IMG/VR virus record: IMGVR_UViG_3300034198_019044
Location: 1-28,133 of that record
DNA: 28,133 nucleotides
Reading direction: 5' to 3' (one strand)
Source of the DNA: a virus
Part shown: positions 1 through 23,709 of the stretch, piece after piece
How the letters are laid out: each line of letters begins with the position of its first letter
Numbering within the stretch: position 1 is the stretch's first letter
Translations under genes and position numbers: made by a program
Notes under the pieces: model-generated
Database searches by the model: none
What the model was told of the DNA's origin: nothing
What the model saw: the letters and a program-made list of their open reading frames with translations, nothing else

Positions 1-527
1 CGCAAAAACTCACACACAGCAACTATCCGGCGTATTTTTACGAATCTAGCGAAACTGCTGCTATATCAATTACTGGGGACTTTACAGTACAAAATGTAAC
101 TGAAGGTCAATATCTATTGGCATGTATTTATTTCTTTAGAGCGGCAACAAAAATGTTCTATGGCAAAGGTGATCATGCCGGAAATCCACCGCCAATATTG
201 TTCCTGGATGGATACGGCAAATATTATTTTCCACACGTGCCTTGCGTGTTGACCAGTTTTACACATACCATGGCAGCTGAAGTTGACTACCTACAAATTC
301 CCGGAGCATCGGCTATAGCACCACCGCCACCAAATGCAGTGCAGGACCCACAGCAGCGTGCAGCCACCATGGCCCTGACCGCAGCCACAGTTCCGGCACT
401 GACTCGTGTGCCAACTGCTAGCCAAATACAGATAACACTACAACCAGTGTACAGTCGTAGAAGTGTAAGCGAATTTGATCTTGAGCAGTTTGCTCAAGGT
501 AGACTACTAGATCGAGGATTCCTATAA
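1..527 (+). CDS. Baseplate tail-tube cap/junction protein, gp48/gp54-like (5' partial)
   Basis: The reading frame is open from base 3 to the TAA at 525-527, so the gene begins before the window. An internal ATG at 117 is not the true start, because good coding sequence precedes it (residues such as ITGDFTVQNVTEGQYLLA). In T4-like phages, gp48 and gp54 cap the baseplate hub and start tail-tube polymerisation. The visible signature is a stretch around 182-300: PPPILFLDGYGKYYFPHVPC, then VLTSFTHTMAAEVDYLQIP. This resembles the conserved segment of tube-cap proteins, in which a 'PCVL-SFSHT-P-DVDYI' type strand motif recurs. The C-terminal part is Pro/Ala-rich and then polar. Its stop overlaps the start of gp53 by one base (TAATG), suggesting translational coupling. 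The family assignment rests on recalled motif similarity and gene order; it could be another tube-fold baseplate protein. Confidence 0.6.
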   Translation, partial: QKLTHSNYPAYFYESSETAAISITGDFTVQNVTEGQYLLACIYFFRAATKMFYGKGDHAGNPPPILFLDGYGKYYFPHVPCVLTSFTHTMAAEVDYLQIPGASAIAPPPPNAVQDPQQRAATMALTAATVPALTRVPTASQIQITLQPVYSRRSVSEFDLEQFAQGRLLDRGFL

Positions 528-826
528 TGGCCGCATATTCAAAAACCAGCCCCTACTACGAAACGCAGCAGTTTGGGCCATTTTTAGATGTAATGAATCA
601 TCGCAGCCTTCCTAAAAATGTCAACGATGTCAGTTTCACTATTGATGCCACCTATGATCTAAAACCACAACTGTTGGCATACGACTTGTATGGTGATCCA
701 TCACTGTGGTGGGTATTTGCCAGCAGGAATCCCAATGTGTTGAAAGATCCACTTTTTGGTTTTGTTGCAGGAACAACTATTTTTATTCCCACCAAAGAAA
801 CTCTAGTATCTACCTTGGGATTATAA
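527..826 (+). CDS. 53: Baseplate wedge protein gp53-like (LysM-like)
   Basis: This 99-aa protein matches the gp53 wedge family of T4-like baseplates. The diagnostic stretch is at residues about 46-90: LLAYDLYGDPSLWWVFASRN, followed by N-V-KDPLFGFVAGTTIFIPT. It shows the YG-P--WW pattern and the 'aGt-I-IP' ending typical of the family's LysM-like fold. In T4, gp53 is longer (about 196 aa), so this is a compact version holding mainly the core domain. The start ATG overlaps the previous stop by one base, and the next gene starts one base after this stop. That spacing supports the chosen start and co-translation with its baseplate neighbours. Assignment is confident from the motif and the context. 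Confidence 0.85.
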   Translation: MAAYSKTSPYYETQQFGPFLDVMNHRSLPKNVNDVSFTIDATYDLKPQLLAYDLYGDPSLWWVFASRNPNVLKDPLFGFVAGTTIFIPTKETLVSTLGL

Positions 827-827
827 T

Positions 828-3581
828 ATGGATAATGGTGCTTATCAAAAATATCTGTATCAGCAGCAGCAGGCTAGAATCAAGGCCAATACTGAAGATG
901 CTAAAAAGCGTGTAGAAGCCAAAGATCATGCAGAAGCGATCAAGGCACAAAAAGATAATCCTGCTCCAGATAATATAAAGCTGGCGTCAAACAAAGCACA
1001 TGCTGTTGAAGCTGCAAAAAAAGACGCAGCGATCAAAGAGCAAAAAGCGTCAGACGATAACCAGTCGGCAGCCGAAACAGCTAGATTGTCCAGGCATGAA
1101 AAAGAACTGGTTGTTGAAGCCAACAAATATATAGAGTTTGACCCCAGACCCAACATGCTACTGGACTATGCAGACTATACCTATGCGTTGAGCCTACATG
1201 TAGTACCACCTAAGAAATACAACGACATGATGACTACTCCGGGATATGTTTATAACACCATGTGGGATCCTTCTTTTGGAAACTCATCAAAAAAATCCGG
1301 TGTACGGCGAATAACCAAAGAAGAGTGGGACGCAGGCGTGGCAATAACTGCTGCGTCTGATGGCAATACCGGAATCATACAGGCACTAGTTGGTACGGTA
1401 CTAGTGGCCAGCGGCGGCCGACGCAACGATCAGTATCGTAGAAATCCAGCATTTAAAGAAGATTTCTATTTTGAAAATCTGCAGATGAAAACAGTAGTAG
1501 GCCTAAACTCTAGGACTAAAAACTCCAATGCCATTGAAATGAGTTTTACGCTAATCGAGCCATATGGGGTTACGTTCTTAGATAGACTACTATCGGTAGC
1601 CGATCAACTGGGCACCAAAAGCTGGATGCAGATACCCTACATGTTGCAAATTGATTTTCTAGGCAATAACTCTGCCGGCGAAGTGTTAACGCCAATCCCT
1701 AATCAAACCAAATATGTACCTATAAAAATAATAGCCTGTAAGATCAAAGTCACCAGTAAAGGCGCCGAATATCAGATACAGGCGGTACCATTTGGTCAGC
1801 AGGCATTTACAGAAAGCGCCGGCAGCACGCCGGCCATGCTAGAAGTACAAGCATCCACAGTGGGGGATTTTTTCAGCAGCATTGGCAGCGCAGGTCAAGC
1901 AGGCGCTATAGTTAAAGTACAAAATTTGGACAAAGAACGTCGCGACGGCATTAATAAAGAAATAGAAGAAGAAAAGAAAAAAACCAAACCCGACGACAAA
2001 CGTATAGCAGAATTGCAAAGCAAAGCAGATGCAGTGTCTAAAGATCTAGCAAAAACACCCTACATAGTAGGTAGCTATACTGCCGCCATGAACAGCTATC
2101 AAACACAGCTGGCTTCTAATGGACACTTACAGCATGCCGAAGTATACCAATTTGACATACATCCCGATTTGGCAAAGTCAAAAATAGTAATTCCAAAAAC
2201 CACCACAGCAGCTAGTACTGCCATGACAGACCCAGTCAAGGCCCTGCGCAACAACGCCAAAATTTCTAATGTCGGCATTGACCAATCCAAATCAGGCTTT
2301 AGTATAAATGCAGGTACATCCATTATCGAAGTCATGAACATGGTCATGCGAGCCAGCGACCATGTAAGAGACCAGCTGTATGATCCGGCTACTGATGCCA
2401 AAAAAACCAACAACAGTAAGGCAGACAGCAAAAATACTCCCATGTCATGGTTTAAAATTACCAGCACAGTAGAGTTATTGGAATTTGATGTCATCAGAGA
2501 TACTTATAGCAAAAAGATAACCTATCACATCATGCCTACGGCTATCTTTAATACCAAATTCCCCAATGCGCCAAAATCTGAGCCTCGTTCGGTCACTAAA
2601 GAATATCACTACATGTACAGTGGACGTAATGACAGCATAATTGATTTTGATTTAGATTTTGACACCATGTTTTATACTGCAATCACAGCGGATCGTAGCA
2701 AGAATCAGCAGACAGAAGTGCAGCAGGAAAATCCCGAGAACACCAGGCAACCCATAAACGCCAGCACCGGTAAAGTGCAAATAACCAACCGACAGATAAA
2801 GCTGGTATCGGGGCATGCAGATATGCAACGGGCAACTAACCCTGACAGCAAAGCTGCCATGGTGACTGATTTCTATAAGAGCAGTTTAAGTTCCAGCCGC
2901 GGTGACATGATCAATGTCAAACTCAAAATCATAGGCGATCCAGAGTTTATCAAACAGGACGATGTATTTTTTAATCCAATGACCAATCCAGATCAAAATA
3001 GTGGAAAGCTAATTGATAAAAATGGCAGTATCATGTTTGACAGTGCCGAACGTTTTGTATTATTGACATTCAACACCCCAGTAGATGTTAACCCCGAAAC
3101 TGGACTCATGGAAGTTGATTCTAAATATTCCACCAGTGCATTCAGCGGAATATACAAAATCATCACGGTAGATAATGATTTCGCCGGCGGCTCATTTACT
3201 CAGACACTGGATCTCATACGTATATTTGATAATTTCCCCAAGACCGAAGATGACAATCGTGCTGCCGAAGTAAAAACAATACCACAAAATAAAACCGAAG
3301 AAACAGCAGCCAGGACCGGTGCGACACTGACTGCTGCTAGTGGTAGTGGTGCGGGACGCGGCAAAATAAATGATTCCTTGCCAGTAGCAGGTCCAGTGAC
3401 ATCAAATACTGACCCGGCTGGCAGTGATGACGGCAGTGCCGCAGTACAAGCAGCCCGAGCAAACGCAGATAAAGTTGCCAGGGACAAGCACTACGAAAAA
3501 TTAAAAGCACAAAAAATAGCAGAAGATATTAAAAAACTTCGAATAGTGCCAATCTATGAAACACCGCCGGGACTTTTATAA
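828..3581 (+). CDS. Baseplate hub protein, gp27-position (917 aa)
   Basis: This is a large hub-type protein directly upstream of the gp5-like spike. Residues about 1-100 are rich in Lys, Ala, Glu and Gln and look like a long charged helix or coiled coil. A second charged helical insert lies at about 366-410 (KERRDGINKEIEEEKKK) and another at the C-terminus (about 880-905). The core begins at residue 110 with NMLLDYADYTYALSLHVVPP, the kind of 'YTY-LSL' opening I associate with myovirus hub proteins. Near residues 780-805, GIYKIITVDNDFAGGSFTQT followed by LDLIRI resembles the closing strand motif of gp27/gpD-type hubs. The expected role is the trimeric ring joining tube and spike. T4 gp27 is only 391 aa, so this protein is more than twice that size. 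Start is one base after the gp53 stop. Exact orthology to gp27 is inferred. Confidence 0.6.
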   Translation: MDNGAYQKYLYQQQQARIKANTEDAKKRVEAKDHAEAIKAQKDNPAPDNIKLASNKAHAVEAAKKDAAIKEQKASDDNQSAAETARLSRHEKELVVEANKYIEFDPRPNMLLDYADYTYALSLHVVPPKKYNDMMTTPGYVYNTMWDPSFGNSSKKSGVRRITKEEWDAGVAITAASDGNTGIIQALVGTVLVASGGRRNDQYRRNPAFKEDFYFENLQMKTVVGLNSRTKNSNAIEMSFTLIEPYGVTFLDRLLSVADQLGTKSWMQIPYMLQIDFLGNNSAGEVLTPIPNQTKYVPIKIIACKIKVTSKGAEYQIQAVPFGQQAFTESAGSTPAMLEVQASTVGDFFSSIGSAGQAGAIVKVQNLDKERRDGINKEIEEEKKKTKPDDKRIAELQSKADAVSKDLAKTPYIVGSYTAAMNSYQTQLASNGHLQHAEVYQFDIHPDLAKSKIVIPKTTTAASTAMTDPVKALRNNAKISNVGIDQSKSGFSINAGTSIIEVMNMVMRASDHVRDQLYDPATDAKKTNNSKADSKNTPMSWFKITSTVELLEFDVIRDTYSKKITYHIMPTAIFNTKFPNAPKSEPRSVTKEYHYMYSGRNDSIIDFDLDFDTMFYTAITADRSKNQQTEVQQENPENTRQPINASTGKVQITNRQIKLVSGHADMQRATNPDSKAAMVTDFYKSSLSSSRGDMINVKLKIIGDPEFIKQDDVFFNPMTNPDQNSGKLIDKNGSIMFDSAERFVLLTFNTPVDVNPETGLMEVDSKYSTSAFSGIYKIITVDNDFAGGSFTQTLDLIRIFDNFPKTEDDNRAAEVKTIPQNKTEETAARTGATLTAASGSGAGRGKINDSLPVAGPVTSNTDPAGSDDGSAAVQAARANADKVARDKHYEKLKAQKIAEDIKKLRIVPIYETPPGLL

Positions 3582-3587
3582 TCTATT

Positions 3588-3601
3588 AGGAATACAACAT
3601 G
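3588..3601 (+). promoter_or_regulatory. Ribosome binding site for the spike gene
   Basis: AGGAA at 3588-3592 lies seven bases before the ATG at 3599. It is one of the clearer Shine-Dalgarno sequences in the window and fixes the start of the gp5-like gene. A TATAAT string at 3577-3582 overlaps the stop of the previous gene, but nothing else suggests that it is a promoter. Confidence 0.6.
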
Positions 3602-5833
3602 CAAGATAAAAGAATAGGCAAGAAACCGCCAGATCACTTTAACCGGGAAGCTGCCAGTACCAAACTAGACAGCGGCCCGTTTATTGGAAAAGTAAAAAAC
3701 AATCTAGATCCCACCAGGAGTGGTCGACTGGACGTTTGGATCGCAGACCTAGGCGCCGGCGATGAAGCTAACCCTAAAAATTGGCGCACAGTTTCCTATG
3801 CCAGCCCCTTCTTTGGTAGTACCTATCAGCCCGACAGTACCAAAATCAATTCCTATAGCAAAGTACGTCACACATATGGCTTCTGGGCAGTGCCGCCGGA
3901 CATTGGGGTGTTTGTATTGTGTACGTTTGTTAATGGTGATCCCGAGCGCGGATTCTGGTTTGCCTGTGTGCCTAACACACTAGGTAATCATATGGTGCCT
4001 GGCATTGCCGGCAGCAGCAACGTAGATAAAACCACCCTTGAAGACGCATCACTGGCTGCTTCCATAGATAAGAAAACCATAGTGGCTGAGTTTAATGAAA
4101 ACGGTGAACCAGACTGGACTAATTTCCCCGGCATCAATAAGCCAGTGCATGAACATCAATTAAAAGTTCTGCGCAATCAAGGACTAGAACGAGATTTCAT
4201 TCGTGGTATTATATCTAGTAGTAGTCAGCGAGAAATGCCTAGCGCAGTTTTTGGCATAAGCACTCCCGGTCGCGCTATCAACGATCCAGCACCGGACCCC
4301 GACTTCCAGAAAAAACTAGTAACAGGCGACTTGAATCCAGTTGACTATGCGATTGCTGCTCGCCGAGGTGGGCATCAATTTGTCATGGACGATGGTGACA
4401 TAAATGACAAAGACCGGCTCATACGTTTACGTACAGCAGGCGGGCATCAATTACTAATGAACGACAGCGAGCAGGTGTTGTACATTGGTAACAGCAACGG
4501 CAGTGTCTGGCTTGAAATGACCGGCGCCGGCCACCTCAACATATTTTCTGCTGCCAGCATAAATGTACGTGCCGGGGTAGACTTGAATTTTCATGCTGAC
4601 AATAACATTAACTTCAATGCCGGCCAAAGTGTAAACTTCAGTTCTGCTAAAGATTTTACAGTACAGAGCACAGCAATAAATGTCAATGCAGCACAGGCAC
4701 TTACCATGTATGGCGGACAGGTCAACATTGGCAGTGACGGTGGGTTAAATTTAAATGCAACAGGTACTACTACCATGAATGGCACCGCAGGAACTAAAAT
4801 CACCGGCGCCAAAGTAACACTAAACGAAGGCGGCAGCGTAGGAATAACTAGACCCACTGCACTTAAATTAAACAAGCTAAGTGATACAGGCAAGCAAGGA
4901 CTAGTGTGGAAAAGTGTAAATGGTGCGCTGGAGACCATAGTACCAATCGCCCCAACACACGAACCCTGGAGCCTACACCAGACTGTAACTGCGGCAGCAC
5001 CTGCACCGGCTCCCGTGCCAGTTGCACCAAAAGCATCTGCTGAGGTCCCAGTAGCGGCAGCGACCCCAGTAGTGGCGGCCGCTAGCCCTTTTGCTGCATT
5101 CAGTCAGGTACAAGCAGTCGCCCAACCTTTACCAACACCGGCACCTAACGTCATCAGTGGTGATCCTCCGGCAAAACCACTGCCAGTGGTTGAGTGTGCT
5201 GGCTCTACTGCACCACCGGCTGACCAAGGACCAAAAGCAGCGGTAGGCAAACCAGTGCGAAAACCACTGAATAAGAATTATCTTAAAAGACCTGACGCTC
5301 CTAACCCACCAGCTGGTATCGGCCCACTGGCAAAGACACATACTAAAGCAGTATTTGCTCAGTTGGCATGGAGTGAAAGTTCTTGGGATTATACATCAGT
5401 AAACGAATTAAACTATATAGGCAAATATCAAATGGGTGCAAGCGCATTAACTACCCTGGGATATCTTAAAAATGATGCCTATAAGCAGTACGGCAATAAG
5501 GCATCAAACTATCCCAGCAGCTGGACAACCAAGGCAAATAATGAAGGTATTAATTCAAAAGCAGATTTTTTAAGCAATCCAGCATTCCAGGAAAAAGTTA
5601 TGATGGAAAATACTACATTTAATTACAAGGTCTTGCGTCACATAACTGCTCTCCACGACGGTGATGATTTGTGTACTGTTGCAGGTATGCTATGTGCTAG
5701 TCACTTGATTGGCGCCGGCGCAGCAAAAACATGGCGCAGAACAGGCGAAGGTGGAGATGCTAACGGGGTAACTGGCACTGCATATTTTAACATGGGAAGA
5801 TATGCTGTTGACGTTTTGGCGGCAGCAGCCTAG
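3599..5833 (+). CDS. 5: Baseplate hub spike, gp5-like, with C-terminal peptidoglycan-hydrolase-like domain
   Basis: Domains in order over 744 aa. An OB-fold typical of gp5/VgrG spikes lies at about 25-135 (FIGKVKNNLDPTRSGRLDVW ... DIGVFVLCTFVNGDPERGFW). A repetitive beta-strand region lies at about 255-410 (GHQLLMND, LNIFSAASINVRAG, INFNAGQSVNFSSA), consistent with the intertwined beta-helix of the spike shaft. Pro/Ala-rich linkers follow at about 465-500 and 524-575. A lytic domain occupies about 580-744: candidate catalytic Glu593 in AWSESSW, then YIGKYQM at 606-612 (compare the G-YQ motif of lysozyme-like folds), and a later AGAAKTWRRTGEGGDANG stretch. T4 gp5 carries its lysozyme between OB-fold and beta-helix; here it is distal. 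Expected role: piercing the envelope and local cell-wall digestion. The stop is TAG. The lytic activity is inferred from the motifs only. Confidence 0.8.
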   Translation: MQDKRIGKKPPDHFNREAASTKLDSGPFIGKVKNNLDPTRSGRLDVWIADLGAGDEANPKNWRTVSYASPFFGSTYQPDSTKINSYSKVRHTYGFWAVPPDIGVFVLCTFVNGDPERGFWFACVPNTLGNHMVPGIAGSSNVDKTTLEDASLAASIDKKTIVAEFNENGEPDWTNFPGINKPVHEHQLKVLRNQGLERDFIRGIISSSSQREMPSAVFGISTPGRAINDPAPDPDFQKKLVTGDLNPVDYAIAARRGGHQFVMDDGDINDKDRLIRLRTAGGHQLLMNDSEQVLYIGNSNGSVWLEMTGAGHLNIFSAASINVRAGVDLNFHADNNINFNAGQSVNFSSAKDFTVQSTAINVNAAQALTMYGGQVNIGSDGGLNLNATGTTTMNGTAGTKITGAKVTLNEGGSVGITRPTALKLNKLSDTGKQGLVWKSVNGALETIVPIAPTHEPWSLHQTVTAAAPAPAPVPVAPKASAEVPVAAATPVVAAASPFAAFSQVQAVAQPLPTPAPNVISGDPPAKPLPVVECAGSTAPPADQGPKAAVGKPVRKPLNKNYLKRPDAPNPPAGIGPLAKTHTKAVFAQLAWSESSWDYTSVNELNYIGKYQMGASALTTLGYLKNDAYKQYGNKASNYPSSWTTKANNEGINSKADFLSNPAFQEKVMMENTTFNYKVLRHITALHDGDDLCTVAGMLCASHLIGAGAAKTWRRTGEGGDANGVTGTAYFNMGRYAVDVLAAAA

Positions 5834-5846: not shown

Positions 5847-6224
5847 ATGATCACGTACAAAGGATTCAGTACCTATAATAGATTCAAAAAATTTCGCCTA
5901 ACCGACTTTGAATTGGCCAAACAAGACTTGTTTAACCATTTTAACATACGCAAGGGTGAGAAGTTGATGAATCCTGACTTTGGCACCATAATATGGAACT
6001 GCCTGTTTGAGCCGTTCACGGAAGAAATCAAGCAACTCATAGTTGATGACGTGACACGAGTAGCGCGGTACGATCCTAGATTGGCTATTACTGACGTTGT
6101 AGTAGCGCAATACCAATACGGAATACAAATTGAACTGTCGTTAGTCTATATTCCCACAAATCAGACTGAACAGATGTTTGTATCGTTCAATCAAAGCACA
6201 AAGTCTGCCAGCATGGGCAATTAA
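5847..6224 (+). CDS. 25: Baseplate wedge protein gp25-like
   Basis: The 125-aa product fits the gp25/GPW family of small wedge proteins that help initiate sheath assembly (T4 gp25: 132 aa). The family pattern is visible: KQDLFNHFNIRKGEKLMNPD, then FGTIIWNCLFEPFTEEIKQL, then RVARYDPRLAITDV. This matches the usual 'G-r---P-fG-gl---lFep' and 'i---eprv' elements. An in-frame ATG at 5802 would add 15 residues (MLLTFWRQQPRVKYS) that overlap the spike gene by 32 bases and look unlike the family. The ATG at 5847, just after the spike gene stop, gives the normal length and is preferred. Little Shine-Dalgarno sequence is visible. Highly conserved family; assignment is confident. Confidence 0.9.
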   Translation: MITYKGFSTYNRFKKFRLTDFELAKQDLFNHFNIRKGEKLMNPDFGTIIWNCLFEPFTEEIKQLIVDDVTRVARYDPRLAITDVVVAQYQYGIQIELSLVYIPTNQTEQMFVSFNQSTKSASMGN

Positions 6225-6269: not shown

Positions 6270-9200
6270 ATGGCCATCAATACAAGACAACAGAGCTTAC
6301 TAGTAGCTGACAATTGGAAAAAGATATATCAAACTTTCCAAGAAGCAGACTTTACCAGTTACGATTTTGAAACACTGCGTAAAAGCATGATAGATTACCT
6401 CAGGATATATTATCCCGAGGACTTTAATGACTTTACTGAAAGCAGTGAATTTGTTGCCTTAATTGACTTGATCGCATTTTTGGGACAAAGTCTGGCATTT
6501 AGAACTGATTTAAACGCTAGAGAAAATTTCATTGACACGGCTGAACGTAGGGACAGCGTGTTAAAGTTGGCAAGACTGGTCAGCTACAGCCCCAAGCGTA
6601 ATATACCTGCCAGCGGGTTTATCAAGATTGAGGGCATAAACACCACCGAAGCCGTGTACGACAGCAACGGACTTAATCTCCGTGGCAGCAATGTCAATTG
6701 GAATGACAGCAGCAATGATAACTGGCACGAGCAGTTTATAACCATATTAAATGCAGCCCTATCCACTAGCCAAGTAGTAGGCAAGCCCGGAAATACGCAG
6801 ACCATCAACGGCATCAGAACAGAAGAATATGGGTTAAATCTCATATCAAACATACTGGGTACCTACAAGTTTGAAGCCCAAGTCGAAGGTAATAAAATTG
6901 AATTTGAAGCAGTCAGCGCAACCAGTGTGGGTAAATCATACGTCTATGAAGCTGCACCTAAAGCCAATTCCTTGTTCAATATCCTATACCGCAACGACAA
7001 TTACGGTAATGGATCAAACAACACCGGATTCTTTGTTTACTTCAAGCAAGGGACACTGGCCAATCAAGATTTCTCGTTAACAGATTCAATTCCCAACAGG
7101 GTAGTATCTTTTGACAACGGCAATGTCAACAATACCGATGTCTGGTTGTATGGACTATCTACCAATGGCACTGTGCAGAATCTATGGCGTGCTGTGCCCG
7201 CAGTAGCTGGCATTAATGTAATTTATAACAAGCAGTCAGATAGGAATCTCTATCAAATCAATAGTCGAGCCGGAGATCAAATTGATTTGGTATTTGGTGA
7301 TGGCAGTTTTGCTAACATACCACAAGGTAATTTTAGAATATACTATCGCAGCAGCAACGGGTTGAGTTATAAAATAACGCCCGACGAAATGCAGAACATT
7401 GTGATACCAGTTAGCTATGTTAGCCGTTCAGGCCGTGCCGAGACATTGACTATACGTGCCAGTTTAAAGTATACAGTAACCACTGCGGCTGCAAGAGAGA
7501 CATCCGACGATATAAGACAGCGAGCACCGCAGGCATACTATACACAAAATCGTATGATTACAGGCGAAGACTATAACATAGTACCATTCACCACGTTCAG
7601 TAACATACTCAAAGTCAAGAGCATTAATCGCACCAGTTCGGGTATTAGTAGATTTTTAGACACCCTGGACACCACAGGAAAATACTCCAGTACCAATGTT
7701 GTTGGCACTGACGGCATTCTGTATCAAAATTATTTTACAAGAAATTTTAAAACCAACTTGGTATCGTATGCAGATATTTCTAATACAATAACTCAAAAAA
7801 TTGTCGCTGACATCATATCAGCAAATGAAATCAAGCATCTCTATTATGCAAAATTCCCCACATACGCAGTCAATGGCTTTACATGGAAGCTGAGCACAGT
7901 TGGGTCTAATAGTGCTACTGGTTATTTTGTAAAAAACAGTAAGCCAGCACAAGTTGGTGGCGTAGTAAAAGATGCTGCTAATTACATTAGAAAAGGAGCG
8001 GTCATACGCTTTGATGCACCAACCGGCCATTATTTTGATAGCAACAATAATCTCTTGCCTGGCGCACCATCAATGATGACAGATCACCTAGCTGTATATG
8101 CTAGCGTAGTCGAAGTAGCTGGCGACGGTACAAACAATGGTCTAGGCAATTATACCAGTGGAGTTGGTCCAGTAACGACCAACATCAAAGTGCCTACTAA
8201 TGCCATTGTTGGGGCAGTTTATCCTATATTTAAAAACAATTTTAACAGTTCCTTTGTAACAACCCTGACTAAATTGTTTCAAGACTTTAATACATTTGGT
8301 ATTACTTACAATAAAGTCAAACAAGATTGGCAAGTGATCACAGAACAAAATCTTGGCAGCGGTGAGTTTGACCTAATCAATCAGGGCAGCACCAGTAGCA
8401 CCGGTCAAGACAACAGTTGGATAATCAAAGCTGTATTCACCAATACTGCTTATATCATATACTACCGCGGGCTAGAGTATGTGTTCCAAAGTGCAGGCGA
8501 AACTACGTTTTTTTACGATGATAAAACTAAAGTATACGACAGTAAAACTGGTAAAGTCTTGCGCGATCAAATAACTGTGTTAAAAACTAATTCTCAAGCT
8601 GATTCGGCAGCACCGTTGGGATACGATTATGTGTGGTACATTGATAAAAGCATAGTCGATCCAGATGGGTTCTCTAATAATGATAAAATTTTAGTCACGT
8701 ATCAAGATCAAAATAGTGATCTTATTCCCGACAATCCGCGACTATTTGAACATATTGTGGCTCCTGCCGTGTCACCAGACACCAAATTGGTATATTTCCA
8801 ATCAGTTAACGGATACGATAGATTCAAGGATATGATTTCAGTCGATGCTGCCGGCATATGCAGTAAATTTGCTACGCAACAAGAAATTTTATCTAATATT
8901 GGTTTGTTCATATCCGGGCAACTGTTTTACGCCACACAAGAAAAAGTATTCTATCAATTGACCGCATCGCATACATTAATTGTAAAATCTGATTATCAGG
9001 CCATAATTGGCAGACAAAATATCACATTCCAATACAGGCATAATAGCCCAGAGTCTAGAAGAATTGATCCTTCTAGTACCAATGTCATGGATCTGTACAT
9101 ATTGACAGCCACATATCAAGCCGACTATCAGAATTGGATCAAGGACACCAGCAACAGCATCTCTAAACCAGTACCACCTACCAGCCAAGAATTAGATATG

Positions 9201-9641
9201 GATTTTAATTCATTAAATGATCAGCGCAGCGTAAGTGATACCATTATTTTTAATAGTGCAGTGTTCAAGCCTATATTTGGAAACAAGGCTGAGCATAGTC
9301 TGCAGGCCACGTTCAAGGTAGTTAAAAATGTGTCATTGTCCACTAGCGATAATGATATCAAATCATCAGTCATAAATGCCATCAATACATATTTTGATAT
9401 CAATAACTGGGATTTTGGTGAGACGTTTTATTTTAGTGAGTTGAGTGCCTATCTACATCAGGCCTTGACCCCTACAATTTCTTCTATAGTTATAGTACCA
9501 ACCAATCCTGATACCAGCTTTGGTAATTTATATCAAATCAATGCCGAACCATATGAGATTATCATCAGTGCAGCTACTGTAGAAAATGTAGAAATTATAA
9601 GTTCAATAACAGCATCTCAATTAAATATGGGATTAAAATAA
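6270..9641 (+). CDS. 6: Baseplate wedge protein gp6-like (1123 aa)
   Basis: gp6 forms the ring that links neighbouring baseplate wedges. The N-terminus fits the family well: NWKKIYQTFQEADFTSYDFE, then LRKSMIDYLRIYYPEDFNDF, then VALIDLIAFLGQSLAFRTDL and NARENFIDTAERRDSVLKLA. A baseplate-J-type signature lies at residues about 409-436 (RETSDDIRQRAPQAYYTQNR, then MITGEDYN). The C-terminal end (IINAINTYFDINNWDFGETF-like stretch) also resembles the J/gp6 C-terminus. T4 gp6 is 660 aa, so about 460 residues are extra, mostly in residues 450-900, between the J-type motif and the C-terminal region. It follows gp25 by 45 nt and is followed by the giant gene after four bases. A late-promoter-like box precedes it. 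Family call is confident; the role of the extra region is unknown. Confidence 0.88.
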   Translation: MAINTRQQSLLVADNWKKIYQTFQEADFTSYDFETLRKSMIDYLRIYYPEDFNDFTESSEFVALIDLIAFLGQSLAFRTDLNARENFIDTAERRDSVLKLARLVSYSPKRNIPASGFIKIEGINTTEAVYDSNGLNLRGSNVNWNDSSNDNWHEQFITILNAALSTSQVVGKPGNTQTINGIRTEEYGLNLISNILGTYKFEAQVEGNKIEFEAVSATSVGKSYVYEAAPKANSLFNILYRNDNYGNGSNNTGFFVYFKQGTLANQDFSLTDSIPNRVVSFDNGNVNNTDVWLYGLSTNGTVQNLWRAVPAVAGINVIYNKQSDRNLYQINSRAGDQIDLVFGDGSFANIPQGNFRIYYRSSNGLSYKITPDEMQNIVIPVSYVSRSGRAETLTIRASLKYTVTTAAARETSDDIRQRAPQAYYTQNRMITGEDYNIVPFTTFSNILKVKSINRTSSGISRFLDTLDTTGKYSSTNVVGTDGILYQNYFTRNFKTNLVSYADISNTITQKIVADIISANEIKHLYYAKFPTYAVNGFTWKLSTVGSNSATGYFVKNSKPAQVGGVVKDAANYIRKGAVIRFDAPTGHYFDSNNNLLPGAPSMMTDHLAVYASVVEVAGDGTNNGLGNYTSGVGPVTTNIKVPTNAIVGAVYPIFKNNFNSSFVTTLTKLFQDFNTFGITYNKVKQDWQVITEQNLGSGEFDLINQGSTSSTGQDNSWIIKAVFTNTAYIIYYRGLEYVFQSAGETTFFYDDKTKVYDSKTGKVLRDQITVLKTNSQADSAAPLGYDYVWYIDKSIVDPDGFSNNDKILVTYQDQNSDLIPDNPRLFEHIVAPAVSPDTKLVYFQSVNGYDRFKDMISVDAAGICSKFATQQEILSNIGLFISGQLFYATQEKVFYQLTASHTLIVKSDYQAIIGRQNITFQYRHNSPESRRIDPSSTNVMDLYILTATYQADYQNWIKDTSNSISKPVPPTSQELDMDFNSLNDQRSVSDTIIFNSAVFKPIFGNKAEHSLQATFKVVKNVSLSTSDNDIKSSVINAINTYFDINNWDFGETFYFSELSAYLHQALTPTISSIVIVPTNPDTSFGNLYQINAEPYEIIISAATVENVEIISSITASQLNMGLK

Positions 9642-9645
9642 TATT

Positions 9646-12600
9646 ATGGCTACTAGTAGAACATTAAATTTCCTACCAGAAATATTTCAGACCGATACAA
9701 ATAAAAAATTTCTAGCAGCTACACTAGATCAATTGATATCAGAGCCCTCGTTTACTCGTGTAAATGGTTACATCGGGCGTAAATTTGCGCCTGGGTATAA
9801 ACTGGGCGACACCTACGTAAATGAAGTCGACGCAGATCGAAAAAATTATCAGCTTGAACCCAGTATAGTAATAAAAAACGCAGCCGGAGATGTTGAGCAA
9901 TACAGCGGCTACACTGATCTAGTCAATAAGATACAATACTATAACGGCTTAACCGACAATCATGATAGATTGTTTTCTTCTGAATCCTATACCTATGATG
10001 GTTTATTTGATTTTGACAAGTTTATCAACTATAGCCAATACTACTGGTTACCAAACGGGCTAGATCCAGTCAGCGTAACCTCTTCAATAGTCAGCAGTCA
10101 AAAAACTTTTACACTAGTAAAAGATGCTGACACAGATAAGTTCGTAGTCAACAACGATATCAATAATCCTAAATTGGTACTGGTACGCGGCGGACTGTAC
10201 AAATTTAAAGTAAATCAGCCAGGATCTAAACTGTGGATTCAAACCGAGCCTGGCACCACTGGCACTGCCGCCGCACAACCGGAAGTGTCTACTAGAGATA
10301 TATTGGGTATCAATAACAACGGCCAAGACGTAGGTGTAATTGAATTTAGAGTTCCTTTAATAGATGCACAAGATAATTTCTTGTCTATGCCTATATTGTC
10401 GTCTGTTGACTATGTGTCTAATTTGAATAAAAACCAAATAATAGGACATAGATTCTATGGCGTGGTAAACACACATGGTGGATTTGATGGCGTAACAGTA
10501 GATCCTAATGGTAAAACTGTTTTATTTTTAAATGATGGTGCTACACAAATTTGGAGAGTTGTCTTAACCAGTAATGGTGGTGACAATGATATTGTGTCGC
10601 TTGAACTCTTACGAAATATCCCAGAGAATTTTAAAGTGTATGTTAGATCTGGTCTGACCTATCGCGCCAGGGAATTTTATAATAAACCAAATGCAGGACT
10701 AACACTGGTACCTGTGCTGACAGCTCAATTTGATAAATTGTACTATCAGGACAGCTCATCGGCCAACGCATACGGCGTTATTGAACTAGTTAATAATGCC
10801 GTAGACGCAATTGAAGTCATTGATGAAATTATAGGACATGCCAACTTTACCAGCCCCAACGGTGTGGTATTTACTAACGGGCTTGTAGTACAATTTGACA
10901 GCACAGTAGTGCCGGACTCTTATGCCAACAATACTTATGTCGTCGAAGGTGTTGGAAAAAGCATCTCGCTAATTGAATTTTCTAAGCTGGTGTCGCCAGA
11001 ATCAAATGTACTGGTAAGCCAAGTGCCATGGGACAAAGTGCCATTTGAAAACGGCAAGTATGACGAAAACTATATAGGGCCAATCACTCCTGATTATATC
11101 GTTTCTAGTAGGGCTAGCTTGGATTTAAATGCATGGGCCAGACAAAATCGTTGGTTCCACATTGACGTAATCGAAGCCACTGCTGCATATAATCAAACAG
11201 TTACAACCCTTGATCAAGCTCAGCGGGCACAGCGGCCTATCATTGAATTTGAGCCTAGTATACAGCTATTCAACAACGGAAGAATTGGCAAGCGCCCAGT
11301 TGACATCATTGATAATACGCTAACCGATGTGTTTGGTAACAGCGTCACTAAAACTGTGGATTTTATTAATCAAGGTTTAGTTTACACACTGAACTTCACT
11401 CCCGAGTTTGACGATATATTAACAGTCACATCTGGTAATATCAAAGTGCCGGAAGCTGACTATACTATTGTTGGTAATGTACTGACACTAATTAACCCAC
11501 CCAGGGGATTTGATATTCGTGTTGAGGCTAAAAAATCATATGACAGCGTACAACACAGTAGATCTCTTACTGTTAGCGGAATTGATTTTAAACCCGGTCA
11601 ACGTGTGTTGTTTGCAGCTGATAGAGATCCGCTAGTACGCACACAAGTCTACACTATACAATACTCACTACAAGCAGAATCTGCCACCCCGTCATACTAT
11701 GATGGCAAAGGCGCTGGCCAAATTACCATCGAGCCGTCTACTATCAGTTTTGGTTCACTTAGCGATCCGTATCAAGTAGCTGATACTCTATACGGTTGGC
11801 GAGTAATAGGCAACGAAGACATTCTAACGGTAACAGAAATACGCGGACTTGATGGTAGCACAGTTGGTACAGTAGGTCAAATTGATGCTTTGCCCGATAG
11901 AAACTACGTAATCTATTTTACTACACCGTATGTACTTGGCAGCTTACGCAACTTTGACATACAACTAATAGGCCCGGGCGGTAGCAATTATGTATTTGGT
12001 GGCAACACAAAATTTACAACTGATGTAAAAGTTGGTGGTGCATTGTATACCATGGACGGCGAGTATATAGGTACTGTGGCCTTCATTATCAGTGACACTA
12101 AATTACGACTTGAAGCAAAATCTAATTTACCATTACTGTTAGAGGAATATCAGTATCGGGATCCTAGGGTGCAACTAATAGTGTCCACCGATCCTGATGA
12201 CGCCATGGCCGAGTACGACAGTGTCGTAGCTGTGGGTGGTGCATTTCAAGGAGTAACATTTTGGTATAACGGTACTACATGGGTCCGAGCACAGCAAAAA
12301 ACCGCAGTAAATCAAACACCAAAGTTTGACGTATACGACACAGCCGACCAGTCATTTGCATCTTCAACATATGCATCAAGTAAATTTGCTGGCACAAAGA
12401 TATTTTCTTATAGCCTTGGCACTGGCACCAACGACTCGGTACTAGGCTTTCCATTAACTTATAGAAACTTTAACTCTTTAGCTGATATTGTATTTGATAA
12501 TAATTTTGATAATGACACCTTTGAATACTTACTGAATGGAAAAATAGTATCTAAAAATATCAACACCGGATACCTACGTAGAAACTCTGGTAGATACAGT

Positions 12601-15600
12601 TTTATCAAACGCACAGTATGGAATACACGAGTTGAATCGGATAAGCAGTATCAAGTTGTTAATGCGGTCTACACCGGTACCGGTAATGGTTCCTATTTTG
12701 AAATTGACGTTTTGCCCAATCCAGATGCTTATGTACCAAACATAAAAGTATTTGTAAACACTACGCTGCTAAACCCATCTGAATATCGGGTGCTCACAAT
12801 TGGAGCAAAACATGCAGTGCATGTGACTAAAGCCATGGTTGTAGGTGACAATGTTAATATATTGGTATACAGCTCAAGTACCAGCACCATGGGATTTTAC
12901 CAGGTGCCACAGAATTTAGATTTCAATAGCAAAAACGTGCCATTGAATAAATTGACTCTCGGTCAATTAAGAAATCATGTTTCTGTGGTAGGACAAAATT
13001 CAGTGGGTATAGCCGGACAAGTGCCTGGCAACAGTAATCTTAGAGATATTGATGTTAAAAACAGAGGCGGTAATATACTGCAATCGGCTGCGCCAACAAT
13101 ATATGCTAGCTTGTTTTTGATCTCTAAGCAGGCTAATTTTTTCAACAGTGTTGACTATGCTAGAAAAGAGTATGCGAAATTTAAAAATAAGTTTTTAGAA
13201 ACAGCATTAAATTTACCGGGCCTTGACTACAATGATCCATCAACTTCAGTTGATACCATATTGAAATTTATCAATCAAGCCAAGAATACATCATTCCCAT
13301 GGAATCGTAGTGATATGGTTCCCTATGGAAATTACACCTCTATAGAGTATACTGTAGTCGACCCCTTACAGCGGCAGTACAAAATAAATTCTATTTTTGA
13401 TATAACCAAGTTACAGACTCGTGCGGTATTAGTCTATAATGGGTCACACCAATTGATTTATGGCAAAGACTATTATTTCCCACAGGATCGCAGTGCGGTT
13501 ACTATTAATGAATCTGTGCATTTGATTGTAGGGTCAAGAATAGAAATTCGTGAATACAACACCGAAGGCAATTACATACCCGAAACGCCTACTAAATTGG
13601 GCCTATACCCTAAATTCTTGCCCAGCGTGTTTACTGATGATACTTATCGTAATACTATACAAGTAATTCAAGGACATGACGGTAGCTTGACTCCTATTTT
13701 TGGAGACTATAGAGACTTGTTCTTACTTGAATTGGAAACAAGAATTTATAACAACATCAAAGTTGACTATGAAAAAACTGCGTTTGACCTGAGAGACTAT
13801 ATCCCGGGCAGATTTAGAACAACTGATTACTCACTGAGTGAATTCAACAGCATTAAATCTTCTGCATTCATGAAGTGGTCGGGCGATAATAGAGTTGATT
13901 TCAACACCAACCACTACTTTGTATCGGGAGATCCGTTTACTTATAACTACAAGTCCAGTACTGATACTGTGTTTAATCAGGCCTTACCGGGTTGGTGGAG
14001 AGGAATTTATAATTATTTCTATGACACAGATCGACCACATACACATCCGTGGGAAATGTTGGGATTCACCGAGCAGCCTTTGTGGTGGACCGGCACATAC
14101 GGGTCTGCACCATACACGTCTGAAAACTTATCTTTGTGGGATGATCTCAGCATGGGCATCATACGCCATGGCAGTCGTGCTGGCACATACGCAAAATATG
14201 CGCGACCACAATTGTCAAAAGTTATACCTGTTAACGATCATGGCACTCTAATACCTCCACTGGGATTGATTGCCAAGCAATTCAACAGCAACCGCACAGC
14301 AGAAAGTTTTGCCATTGGTGATCAGTCGCCTGCTGAGAGTGCATGGATGCGATCTAGTGATTACCCGTATGCATTGCAGCAGATAGTGGCTATTATGAAA
14401 CCAGCCATGTATTTTGCCATGTTGTTTGATACCAGTGTATATCATAAAAATACCGAGTTGGATCAATATCAAATAACTGCCACAGGACAACGACTAACAC
14501 CCGCAGATATAACCATACACAACGAACTAGTTAACGGTGTTGCTACAAATGCAGCTGGTTATATCAATTACATCAATGATTATCTAATCAGTCAAGGCAT
14601 CGACGGCACAGGCACCATTAGATCACTATTAACAAATCTCAATGTGCAGCTATGCTATAAAGTTGGTGGCTTCACAGATAAAAATTACATAACAGTTCTA
14701 GCAGAACAATACAGCCCGGGCAGTATAAATGAATCTATTATTGTTCCCGATCAAAATTATCAAATTTACCTTAACAAGAGCGTGCCGGTTGACCGAGTGG
14801 CATACAGTGCGGTAATAATTGAAAAAACCGAAACAGGATATTCGGTGACTGGTTACGATAAAAACTCACCTTATTTTGTTGTAATCCCCAGCAACACTGA
14901 CAGCGAAAATTATAATATCACTGTTCAAAATATCAGTGCTACCATATACAAAAATTATCAATTTGTCAAATTAGCCATACCATATGGTTATGAATTTACA
15001 TCGAGGCAGCAAGTAGTTGATTTCTTGGTCAGCTACCAACGTTATCTAAACAGTCAAGGGTTTATTTTTGATGAATACAATCAAGATATGGCCATGACTC
15101 AAGATTGGATTTTAAGTGCTCACGAATTTTTAACATGGACCCTACAAGGCTGGACTACTGGCAGTGTGATGATATTGAGCCCGTGCAATTCTAAACTAAA
15201 TTTAATCAGCACATTCTCTGTAGTAGATGAGATAACAAATGATTATGCAGGTAGTAAAATACTTGACCCCAACTTCTCGGTCATTAAAAATGATAATTTA
15301 TTCATTGTACGCGAAGCTGAAAATTTTGTAATTAAAACCACCACTAATCAAACCATTGCTTTTGCTGAACTTGATTTAGTGCAGCACGAACATGTATTGA
15401 TCTTTGACAATGTTACTGTGTTCAACGATGTTATATACAGTCCCGAGTTGGGCAATAGACAATACCGACTAAAACTAATAGGCGATAAAACTGCTGATTG
15501 GGACGGGTCTTTGTATGCGCCTGGCTTTATATATAATTCTACAAACATTGATGCTTGGGCAGCGGGAAATGATTATCACAAAGGTGATATAGTTGTTTAC

Positions 15601-18600
15601 AAAAACACCTACTACACAGCAATACAGGATCTTGCAGCAACTGAGTCTTTTGTATTAAGTAACTGGAAAATAATTAACAAAGCTGACATAAAGACCGGAC
15701 TGTTACCAAACTTCTCCACCAACGCAGAAAAATTCAATAACATATACGATGTTAACAGCAGCAGTTTAGATGAACAACTACAAGAATTCAGTGCAGGACT
15801 AATTGGATTCCGTAAGAGAAATTATCTAACTGACTTGAATCTAAACGTCAGCAGTCAAATTAAATTCTACCAAGGATTTATCAAAGACAAAGGTACTAAA
15901 AATGCAATTAATGCATTAAAAAATACCTCGTTCAATAATCTACAAAACAATGTTACCTACTATGAGGAGTGGGGTTTCAGAGTTGGTGAGTATGGCGCTC
16001 AAAACATCAATCAATCAGTAGAAATACAGCTGGATGAAACATGGGACTATACTGGGGATTTGGGCATCGCCATCATCGGAGATCACGACGCACCAATTGA
16101 AGGCATGATTTCTGTTCGCGACAAAGATTTATATGCTAGACCTGCTAAGCCGGGCCCGGCGCGTTTTATCAATAGAGACATGCAATCTCCACGTGGTAAT
16201 GATATACAACCAGCCGGTTATGTAAATCTTGACGACGTGGATTCTACAGTATTCAACAGCTCTGACTACAATACAACATTTACTGATCTCAGCAAATTCG
16301 CCAGCGGTCATACTATATGGGTGGCTAACAGTACCAACAGGGACTGGGATGTATACCGAGTTAACGAAACAAACAATACGATCACTACCATTAGTTATTC
16401 TCCAGATCTTCGTGGTAAAATAACTACAAAAAATCCGCACGATTTTGTAGTTGGCGATACAATAATAATTAAACAATTCAGTGACGCATTTAATGGATTC
16501 TACGAAATATCAGCGATTGATGACCGTACTTCGTTTACAGTCAGCGTAACATCCGACCAAAACAAATTGCTCAAGGTCAATCCTGTCACAGGATTGGGTA
16601 TAGTGTTCATACTAAAATCTATTAGATTTGATTCACCAAAGCAAATTGTTGATGCAACACCTTTGCATACATGGAAAGATTCTGATTTGGTCTGGGTCGA
16701 CTCAGACGAAAATGGACATTGGGCAGTATATGAAAAAAGCTCTCCTTGGAAATATGATAGCATACTCAGCATAAAAAATAAAAACTACAGTGCCAGGGAG
16801 CAATATGGTGCGGCAATTAAGATTAGCCCAGATGGAACAAAGATAGTAGTTGGATCACCGGGCGAGTTTAGTGGCACGGGCGGAATCCACGTATTTAAAA
16901 ATGATACCGCCAAGCAAGAAATATCAGTTTTATCTTTGTCAAACGCAAACATTATTGCGTCTGGGTATAGTGTTGATATCACTAACCAACACGTCATAGC
17001 AGGAGCACCTGATTCAAATTCAAGATCGGGCAAGGTTATTGTATATTCAATTGTTGATGATGCATATGTAAGGCCAATACAGATTATTGATAATCCGTCA
17101 ATCCTTGCGGCAGCAAAATTTGGACAAAGCATATCTGCAAGCAGTAATGGGCAATATCTTTACATTGGTAGTCCAGGAAATGATCGTGTACATCTTTACC
17201 AAAGAAAAGATTATGAATTTGCGACTAGTGAATTCAGGGTGTCTGATGGTATACAACCAAGTAGAGCACCATACACAAGATCGTACCAGCTGCCTTATAC
17301 AGTAACTGACAACAAGAGCATTGCAGTTTACTATAAAAATCAGTTGTTAACATTAATACACGATTACAACATATCCGGTAACTTTGTTGTTATTAATCCT
17401 TTGGTGTTTGACACAGCTGACTTTGATATGTTTGCTGACGAAACAAATGAATTTATAGTCATCACTCGCAGATCATATTATGATCTCAAGTATACAGTAT
17501 TGTCTACCGAGCGCGGAGTACAATTTGGATATAGTATTAAAACCGATACCACTGGTAAAATACTAGCAGTTGGTGCTCCGGATTCTAACATAAATGGTAA
17601 TCTCTATGCCGGCGCTGCTTATGTGTACAAAAATTACGGCGATACTAGATACCAATCACTTGGCCTAATAGAAAAACTTATAGCCGATGTGCCAACCTAT
17701 CGCGGAAAATTTGGAACCAGCGTGGAAGTATCCGCTAGCGATGTCAGCATCTACATTGGTGCACCGGGCTACAGCCACAGTGGCTACTCTGGGGGAGCTG
17801 TTTTTAGATTTGTAAATAACGGTCTAGCACATGGAACAATTAAATCTCTACCAGTTGCAGGTAATATTGCATCTTGTGGTCTTAGCATCAATGGCAATTT
17901 AATTAGTTTTACTGGTGGCACAGTTAGCAGTTTAGCCAGCAGGATAAATCAATATAATCTAACTGGCATCACAGCAACAGTAGACAGTGGCAGTTTGATC
18001 ATTAAGTCTGCAATAACTACAGAATTTAATAAGCTGGAAATAATTCCAGAGTCTGGTAATGTCTTGGCGCAATTGGGTATGTCAATATACCAATTGACAC
18101 AAAAGATCACCAAGCCAACTAACTCAACCTGGGAAAAATTTGGCGGATCAGTCAAAGTGTCCGGCGACGATACAACCGTAATGATCGGCAGCATCAATGG
18201 CAGTGTCAACTTGTACGCTAGTTTGGACAATGCAACAACTACATTTGACGGAAAAATTACCAGATTCTTGGACTATTTGTCAAATACTGGAGTTGTATAT
18301 GCTTACGATCTATTGCCGTCTGCGCGGCAAGACCAAGATTTAAACGGCATGTTTGGAATGACACAAGAGTTTGGTGTAGCAGAATTGCGAGCTGGAGACA
18401 TATTTGGTTCCGGTGTTGACTTTAACAATAACACTGTGCTAATTGGTGCGCAGCTTCGAGACCAAGGAAATACTATAAGCGAAAATTCTGGACAAGTATA
18501 CTACTACAGCAATGCCCATGGCAGTAAAGGATGGACAAAAACAAAGCAACAATTACCATCAGTGGAAGTTACTGGCATTAACAGAGTATTTTTATACACA

Positions 18601-21600
18601 GCTAAAACAAAATCGATACTTACTACACTAGATTACATAGATCCTATCAAAGGAAAAATACTAGGCATAGCAGAACAAGACTTGGATTTTAAATCCAGCT
18701 GGGACCCGGCTAGTTATAATTCTGGTACATCCGGTGATCGTACAACTTCTGATGAATATCATTGGAATTCTGCTCAATTGGGTATGACCTGGTGGAATTT
18801 AGATACTGTTCGCTATATTGACTACGAGCAACAAGATATCAATTATCGTTTTAAAAACTGGGGCAAGGCATTTGCCGGCAGCGACATAGCTGTTTACGAG
18901 TGGGTCTCTAGCACAGTATTACCAAGCAATTATTCAGCAACTGAGACTGGAACACCGCTGTACACTGATGACAGCTCATATGTAACCACATACGGTGTTG
19001 ACACCAACGGTGTGATCACCGTGACCTACTACTATTGGGTACGTGGACGTACCAGTGTACCTACAAACAGTAATCGAATACTAAGCGCCAGCGGAATAGA
19101 ACAGGCTATCGCTAATCCCAAATTAACCAATATCCCTTATGCTGAGATATTATCAGACAGCAGCGTCGGGTTGGTCAATTGCCAAGACTTTATATCTGGT
19201 AAAAATACCATACTACAAATTGACTATGATAGCAAGTTAAACAACAGCATCATGCATAATGAATATGCACTAGTACAACAAGGCAATGCCGACGGCGTGT
19301 TCCCAGAAAGAATAATCAACAAACTAGTTGACAGCCTCAGCGGTGTTGATCGCTTGGGGCTAACTGTGCCTGATCCCGATATAAGACAATCACAGAAATT
19401 AGGAATTGGTCTGCGTCCAAGACAAACCATGGTACTGGATAAAAATCTAGCTATCAAAAATATGACTCAGTATGTGAACGCAGTATTTGCCAAAACTACA
19501 GCCGCAACAAAAATACAGAGCAACCACTCATACTTAATGGCCAGCTGGTTTGATAGAGACCCAGAACCAGCAGCGACTGAATATGATTATCGCGCTGCTA
19601 ATGTTACTGAACTTGGATATGTAGACCGATATGACTCTGCAGGCAACATACTAGCTGGACTTCGTGTGCTAGTGGCGCAAGATCATGATTATTATAATTT
19701 CTGGACCGTTCGCGAATTAACTGCCAGCGGAGAATTCCGTGTAGTTAAAAATCAACAATACGATACCACGCGTCTTTGGGATTTTGATACTTGGTACAGC
19801 AGCGAATACACCTCAGCAACTAAAATAAATTACATCGTTAATCAATACTCCGATATTGAAAAACTTGGCGTGCAAGCCGGCGATGTAGTCAAAGTATTGA
19901 ATCACGCCCCTCGAGGATTTGAAATATATAAATTTTCTTCAGCAACTGACAGCACACTGATCGCACTAGAGAACGGGACACTGGTACTAAAAGATTTAAT
20001 TTGGGATACCAGTGCAAACGGAGTAGGTTTTGATAATGCTGCATTTGATGCCAGTGCATACGACGGCGACTACAGCCATGAAATACGTAACATTCTAACA
20101 GGGCTACAAAAAGATATCTTTATTGAGGACTTGGCCGTTAACTATAATGAATTGTTGTTTGTGGCAATCCAATACATATTAAGCGAACAGAAAAATGTAG
20201 ATTGGGCCTTTAAGACCAGCTTTATTGATGTGCTGCACAAAATACGTGAGCTGCAACAATACCCAATCTACATCAAAGATAATACCACCTACTATAGGCA
20301 ATACCTAGAAGAGGTTAAACCTTATCGTACTAAAATACGCAACTATCGTATTGCCTACACTGGCACTGACACTGCCAACACTCATGCATCCGATTTTGAT
20401 TTGCCTGGCTATTATGACAGTGACCTCAAGCGTTTCCGTAGCCCAAGTACAGAGTATTATTCCAAGGACAATAATCTGTACCTGTTGCCTGAGTATCAAG
20501 ATTGGAAAAACAATTACCTAAACGGAGTTGGCAGTATAACTGTAATCAATCGCGGACAGGGCTATACCGAAGCCCCGACAGTTACTGTGGTAGACAGTGC
20601 TGGTACCGGTACTGGAGTAGTGGCCTACGCCACTATCAATCCATTGCTGGGCACTGTAGTCAGTATCACAGTAGTCAATCCTGGAAAAAACTTCCGAGGT
20701 GAGCCTAGGGTAGTGATCAACGGTATTGGTACCGGTGCAACGGCCGCTGCAAAATTGGCCAACAATAAAATTCGCAGCATAAAAACTCTGTTAAAATTTG
20801 ATAGAGTGGCCTACAACACCGACATATTTGAATGGCTGCCCGGGGTTAGCTACACAGCGGGGCAGAGAGTCAGCTATCAAAGCCATGGCTACATAGCAAC
20901 TAAAACCGTACCAGCTGGACAATTCTTTAATTTTTCGTTGTTTAAATTAATTCCAGATGCCGAATACACTGCCGCAATTGATAGAATAGCGGCCATGTAC
21001 AATCCCAACAAATATCAAATACCGAGAGAGTTTGATCCAGTGACTGGCAAGATTGATTTGTCCAGGCTGGTACCAACAGCAGACAATCGAGTTGACAATG
21101 ATACTGAGTTGTATAACGATACATCAGTAGAATCACCATTCAATTATGATGATAGGACTGGTACCAATCTAACTGATATCAATCTGGTTGGCGGTAAATT
21201 TTATGAAGAAAAAATAGCCCGCGCACCCGAGGAATTAGTTGCCGGCACTACGCTGGATACTATAACAATGACAGTGACCACAGACATTAGCGCCAATGTG
21301 GGTAGCCCAACAAAAATAGCCTACAGAATGTTTAAAAGCATAGACAATGCTGTAGAATATTACGCAGTATCTGGGGAGAACACCAGTATCTTGACCGCAG
21401 ATTTGCTGAGCACAGATACTACTGCTAATGTTGCAGACGTTACGGCAGTAGCTGGGGGAAGCACATTCAGTTCGGTGTTTATCAACGGTGAAAAGATTAC
21501 TTATCGTGGTGTAGATATTGAAAATAATCAATTACTGCACCTAAGCAGAGGCGTGGGAGGAACTCCAATTCCAGAAATGCATGTGGTCAATACCAGAGTT

Positions 21601-21971: not shown

Positions 21972-23679
<1,708 letters not shown>

Positions 23680-23693
23680 ATAACATTAATTGC

Positions 23694-23709
23694 GGAGTAT
23701 TTTAGAATG
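23694..23709 (+). promoter_or_regulatory. Ribosome binding site for the second fibre gene
   Basis: GGAG at 23694-23697 lies nine bases before the ATG at 23707, in a 27-nt gap. It supports that start. The gap also opens with GGTAAATAAC, only a loose match to the TAAATA boxes seen elsewhere. Confidence 0.55.

Follow-up and report, generated by a model that had tools for sequence, protein, structure and literature searches.

The question raised by this locus is whether the central spike of a contractile phage tail can carry its wall-cutting enzyme beyond the beta-helical shaft, at the far C terminus. The sequence studied here (the window) is IMG/VR record IMGVR_UViG_3300034198_019044, a stretch of 28,133 nt from an uncultivated virus of bacteria, and the product of its open reading frame at positions 3599 to 5833 is confirmed as a gp5/VgrG-like baseplate spike (Table 1). 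It resembles T4 gp5 in combining an OB fold, a predicted triple beta-helix, and a lysozyme-superfamily enzyme in a single hub protein, but in gp5 the order is OB-lysozyme-helix, the lysozyme belongs to another family, and a PAAR protein, gp5.4, caps the helix. The hub gene sits within a baseplate gene cluster, with gp53 and gp25 neighbors recognized by Pfam and a gp6-like wedge protein recognized by PHROGs; from its position, the 917-aa protein encoded upstream is possibly the gp27-like partner of the hub. An evolved VgrG of a type VI secretion locus with an immunity gene is ruled out by this phage baseplate cluster, in which the gp25 gene starts 13 nt after the hub stop codon. A PAAR gene would not fit into that gap. 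Also inside the cluster is a single open reading frame of 4107 aa (9646 to 21969). Farther along, a long collagen-like GxT/GPT repeat marks a protein of 345 aa (22642 to 23679), and a second, related tail-fiber-like open reading frame comes next (23707 to 24945).

Table 1. Features of the window, with the residues of the hub protein where these apply
Feature	Position (nt)	Strand	Evidence
gp53-like baseplate wedge protein	527..826	+	PF11246; phrog_7145
917-aa virion protein, upstream of hub	828..3581	+	phrog_11190 virion structural protein
Baseplate hub/central spike gene (gp5/VgrG-like), 744 aa, C-terminal lytic domain	3599..5833	+	ORF; phrog_13211 and phrog_27932; 41-member full-length alignment; AlphaFold2 model
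OB-fold region, N-terminal, residues about 27-140	3677..4018	+	phrog_13211 from residue 29; Phage_base_V weak
Predicted triple beta-helix shaft, residues about 273-410	4415..4828	+	DUF2345 weak match at 309-362; short repeated strands, pLDDT about 90 at 290-370
Post-shaft beta-hairpin (425-446) and H454-E455-P456 motif	4871..4969	+	AlphaFold2 strands 425-433 and 436-446; HEP in 41/41
Flexible Pro/Ala-rich linker, residues about 461-540	4979..5218	+	Pro+Ala content; low pLDDT
GH23-like (lysozyme-superfamily) lytic domain, predicted, residues 571-744	5309..5830	+	AlphaFold2; PDB matches MltE, MltC, Slt, Cj0843
Codon of Glu593, predicted catalytic acid	5375..5377	+	Invariant 64/64; weak alignment to Slt/MltE/MltC catalytic Glu column
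gp25-like baseplate wedge gene	5847..6224	+	PF04965, E 1.7e-8
gp6-like wedge protein	6270-9641		PHROGs

The spike backbone is recognizable by its profile matches. Hub residues 29 to 424 match phrog_13211 (baseplate hub; E = 3.4e-47), and against Pfam the window hub reaches 19.9 bits for DUF2345 and 17.6 bits for Phage_base_V, both under the cut-off. The homologous hubs of phages PA5oct and RaK2 exceed the cut-off for the OB fold (PF04717, Phage_base_V), and the helix match lies over or near it in homologues. For the window itself, the beta-helix is suggested by the weak DUF2345 match together with strands at pLDDT about 90 in the AlphaFold2 monomer model. This model, run at full length on one chain with 41 homologues in the alignment, places the C-terminal domain at pLDDT about 93 and the N-terminal half at moderate confidence (mean pLDDT 71.6, pTM 0.44), as expected for a single chain of an intertwined trimer. 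Its best PDB matches are spikes of extracellular contractile injection systems (eCIS), VgrG, and T4 gp5, with MltE and Slt next, matching its C-terminal part. The shaft hairpin is immediately followed by the HEP motif (residues 454 to 456, window 4958 to 4966), which is invariant in 41 of 41 hubs that end in the lytic domain (type A hubs) and usually takes the form (T/S)HEP followed by an aromatic residue. Counterparts occur at the hub ends of SCTP-2 (THEPCPDH), PA5oct (FEPCPEH), and Atu_ph07 (THEPFDQH).

The long Pro/Ala linkers reported in the first-pass annotation are borne out, as these two residues make up 46% of positions 462 to 570 versus 19% of the entire protein; AlphaFold2 gives pLDDT about 28 to 35 at residues 470 to 530, and some 80 residues are predicted to be disordered. 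PHROGs matches and the model together yield the order OB fold, beta-helix shaft, HEP motif, disordered linker, and lytic domain (residues 571 to 744), in agreement with the earlier proposal of a lytic domain beyond the helix at the C terminus. The proposed span, 5342 to 5833, does hold the domain, although its start is slightly earlier, at nt 5309 (residue 571). The T4 order, OB-lysozyme-helix, was rejected for this hub because these domain positions put the lytic domain after the helix.

We conclude that, in a contractile tail of the T4 type, this protein very probably forms the central spike, with GH23-like lytic domains that are tethered past the shaft and delivered to the periplasm. The domain order and the predicted fold are well supported, whereas we infer from homology with T4 gp5 and evolved VgrGs that the spike is a trimer, that the domain is catalytic, and where and when the enzyme acts. 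Three chains would together build a collar of OB folds and the triple beta-helix of the shaft. Past the shaft, hairpin, and HEP motif, every chain would run on as a flexible tether of roughly 60 to 140 residues to a terminal GH23-like lytic domain, in which Glu593 would be the general acid for peptidoglycan cleavage. Upon sheath contraction the shaft would pierce the outer membrane and bring the three tethered lytic domains, ahead of the tip or around it, into the periplasm; there they would cut glycan strands and so permit passage of the tube. T4 gp5 shows how such a shaft is used, and its last strand binds the PAAR tip gp5.4; in V. cholerae VgrG3cp, a peptidoglycan-cutting domain fused past the spike helix is delivered and acts in the periplasm. 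The likeness to evolved VgrGs (V. cholerae VgrG3, VgrG3cp), which had been pointed out before, is fair as an analogy; there too the peptidoglycan-cutting domain is C-terminal and beyond the spike helix. Unlike the window hub, however, an evolved VgrG is an antibacterial effector with an immunity gene that belongs to a secretion system, and its enzyme is pesticin-like or lysozyme-like.

That the enzyme enters the periplasm first, as the first-pass annotation envisaged, we infer by analogy, and a long disordered tether could let it lie back along the shaft. Before contraction the tethered enzyme might fold back and dock beside the shaft or under the hub, in a working position like that of T4 lysozyme, which touches the first half of the beta-helix. 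A linker this long and disordered (57 to 138 residues from HEP to residue 577 in the 41 homologues) permits docking, but the wide variation in its length and sequence speaks against a fixed docking site. The tether is compatible with both placements; we regard fold-back as unlikely and lean toward delivery of the tethered domains ahead of or around the tip.

In the C-terminal domain, residues 573 to 737 match phrog_27932 (hub/tail lysozyme; E = 6.7e-31) in a profile search of the kind that had been suggested, and the match falls at positions 334 to 491 of the 855 in the profile, so the lytic domain is central in the phages that define phrog_27932. An E value of about 1e-30 and a glutamate invariant in 64 of 64 relatives put this homology far above chance. 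In Pfam and among PDB sequences no lysozyme or SLT family appeared: residues 571 to 744 match no Pfam family at E ≤ 1, the domain-alignment profile finds only weak matches among PDB sequences, with no wall-cutting enzyme among them, and no GH23/SLT sequence-family match was found in either set. The enzyme class therefore rests on fold and motifs. The AlphaFold2 model of residues 571 to 744, built with 64 relatives, has pLDDT 95.9 and pTM 0.90; its top PDB match by Foldseek is MltE (E = 0.03, prob 1.00), and VIA-align gives Z scores of 11.0 for Cj0843, 10.8 for MltC, 10.3 for MltE, and 9.6 for Slt70, with lower scores for a T7 core protein (9.1), the phi6 lysin (8.6), and phiKZ gp144 (8.4). Nearly all of the VIA-align matches listed are lysozyme-superfamily enzymes.

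The model and its structural matches point to the lysozyme fold with an active-site Glu that had been anticipated, and the residues named beforehand are in place, with Glu593 in LAWSESSWDY and YIGKYQM at residues 606 to 612. Glu593 ends the first long helix (residues 579 to 594) and is invariant, as are Ser594, Gly608, and Tyr610. In a profile alignment by hhalign against E. coli Slt, MltE, and MltC (MG1655), which has a low probability (3.2%, E = 0.014), Glu593 falls on the catalytic Glu of Slt, GKYQM on GLMQ, and ASHLIGAGAAKTW on AAYNAGPGRVRTW. We therefore describe the fold of residues 571 to 744 as GH23-like, with an active site that is predicted, and refrain from assigning the domain to GH23. 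A GH24 (Phage_lysozyme) identity was rejected, given that there is no Pfam match and that the fold is nearest to GH23-type enzymes. The weak sequence match to known transglycosylases would also suit a lysozyme fold that survives as a wall-binding or structural domain and does not cut peptidoglycan. Such a remnant is improbable, however, as even strongly diverged domain members keep Glu593-Ser594, the GKYQ motif, and Gly705 almost without exception, a pattern expected of an active site under selection.

Homologues with the window's domain order were sought, and about 60 loci of environmental viruses show it. The locus-type counts are based on the best 80 of 289 relatives found in an IMG/VR scan and are skewed toward the window: 62 of the 82 loci examined are type A, ending in the lytic domain (some are 5'-truncated fragments), 8 carry a further C-terminal M15-like domain (A-M15), 11 have the order OB-lytic-helix (type B), mostly with an M15 domain after the helix, and 1 has the lytic domain in a tape-measure protein. 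In this last case (L006, 739 to 3738), it forms the C-terminal end of a 1000-aa tape-measure-like protein. On a quick, midpoint-rooted tree of 66 domains, types A and A-M15 together make up one side of a branch with SH-aLRT 98. The OB families differ between type A (PF04717) and type B (PF06714), and the two orders therefore more plausibly reflect the fusion of one enzyme family to two spike backbones; a permutation inside one protein is for the same reason less favored.

Among cultured phages, the lytic domain is central in hubs of Rhizobium, Agrobacterium, and Sinorhizobium phages, and in pYD6-A it is N-terminal in the N4-like virion RNA polymerase; we found no cultured phage with it in the distal position. 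The hubs of phiM9 and other Rhizobium/Agrobacterium phages (phrog_27932) share the lytic family with the window at about 40% identity, but there the domain precedes the helix, on another backbone with no OB match detected. Since the same family occurs in central hub, tape-measure, and virion RNA polymerase positions, it is a mobile virion enzyme; these other carriers, too, are virion proteins that serve at entry. When the window domain was searched against 84,980 cellular genomes, no relative was confirmed, which gives no hint of the host. That the lytic domain is cleaved off after assembly, to serve as a free lysin at entry or host lysis, is highly improbable: the Pro/Ala linker would be protease-sensitive and Tenacibaculum phage PTm1 has the domain as a stand-alone protein, but all complete type A loci retain the fusion, and the domain turns up repeatedly in proteins of the virion, not in lysis cassettes.

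The nearest relatives of the window's hub backbone are jumbo phages. RaK2-like hubs (RaK2 gp078, CBB_240, GAP32_234, SE_PL gp161) have a homologous OB-helix backbone (28 to 30% identity) and, like the window hub, a far C-terminal enzyme after linkers. By Pfam, the hubs of RaK2, GAP32, and Vibrio phage 2.275.O consist of OB, helix, M23-like, and C-terminal GH24 domains. RaK2-like hubs differ from the window in that the enzyme is GH24 (Phage_lysozyme) with an M23-like domain before it, there is no HEP motif, and the hosts of these phages are cultured enterobacteria. After the helix, RaK2-like hubs (L010, 2423 to 5104; L011, 2938 to 5586; L017, 2941 to 5607) have an HxH-containing stretch (SHIHYH, SHTHDY), reminiscent of the iron-binding tip of P2 gpV. 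In GAP32 (L010, 5143 to 5628) and SE_PL (L017, 5644 to 6129), a second, stand-alone lysozyme gene lies directly 3' of the GH24-ending hub. The RaK2 paper (2013) described the C-terminal lysozyme as a very unusual domain composition, and the CBB paper (2017) repeated this for CBB_240, which was detected in virions; the post-helix order itself is therefore already published for RaK2-like jumbo phages and not new.

Other hubs carry different cargo behind the helix, or none. Like the window, Caulobacter phage Cr30 has a post-helix enzyme (M15-like), but its hub also has a central Phage_lysozyme2 domain in the T4 position, and a PAAR gene lies directly downstream, overlapping the 3' end of the hub gene. 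Behind its helix, the Atu_ph07 hub has a lambda-R-like domain (phrog_90 endolysin) and a trypsin-like one; the latter (PF13365, residues about 700 to 849; L009, 2405 to 4999) is unusual as spike cargo. The hubs of PA5oct and SCTP-2 stop soon after the helix. What is new here is a different enzyme family, GH23-like, in the post-helix slot of a large environmental virus group, for which we found no published account in the open-licence literature, together with a clear view of a post-helix slot whose occupant can be exchanged (GH24, GH23-like, M23-like, M15, trypsin-like) and a group, that of the window, without a detectable PAAR tip gene.

The first-pass annotation expected the enzyme to share space with any PAAR protein at the tip. 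A search with PF05488 found PAAR in T4, PA5oct, SCTP-2, Atu_ph07, and 5 of 8 type B records, and found none in the window, RaK2, GAP32, Vibrio phage 2.275.O, SE_PL, or phiM9, nor in 19 other type A/A-M15 records (fragments of 17 to 250 kb, in which a diverged PAAR could escape). The window's group resembles the RaK2-like phages, in which no PAAR was detected either (complete RaK2, GAP32, and SE_PL genomes). In all type A loci with an identified gp25, the distance from hub stop to gp25 start is -49 to 28 nt; the majority of type B loci have 918 to 952 nt there, and a simple search found a PAAR open reading frame downstream of the hub in three type B loci (L070, L087, L090), while the gap in type B locus L005 is 2 nt. 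The contrast between types A and B is confounded by descent, as type A is a single lineage. Sharing of the tip is possible, as enzyme and PAAR coexist in Cr30, in Atu_ph07 (with a post-helix enzyme), and in T4-order hubs (with M15), and we therefore reject exclusion of PAAR by a C-terminal enzyme as a general rule.

The PAAR protein of PA5oct (L107, 1602 to 2621; NC_071039, 164101 to 165123) itself carries a C-terminal M15-like peptidase, and its record has a mass-spectrometry note. This domain is 42% identical (E = 9e-31) to the C-terminal domain of type B hubs; one enzyme thus travels with PAAR in one phage and with the spike in other phages. Jumbo phage PAARs were described as unfused in a 2021 survey. 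It is conceivable, although less likely than not, that the end of the beta-helix in the window's spike lineage is an exchangeable enzyme slot and that the tethered enzyme has taken the place of the PAAR tip in the window's group, so that the wall-cutter leads.

With this family, a virion lytic domain not covered by Pfam is now defined. Contractile phage tails need not have their wall-cutting activity at the position that it has in T4; a wall-cutter can ride on a tether beyond the shaft, occupying a slot open to unrelated enzymes, much like that of evolved VgrGs. Natural pairs are on offer, with the same enzyme family central or distal, and the same backbone with or without an enzyme or PAAR, and such pairs could test whether the position of the enzyme affects envelope penetration. 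If the slot and the replacement of PAAR are true, the needle of these viruses would work without a separate sharpening protein, with the wall-cutter as its leading part.
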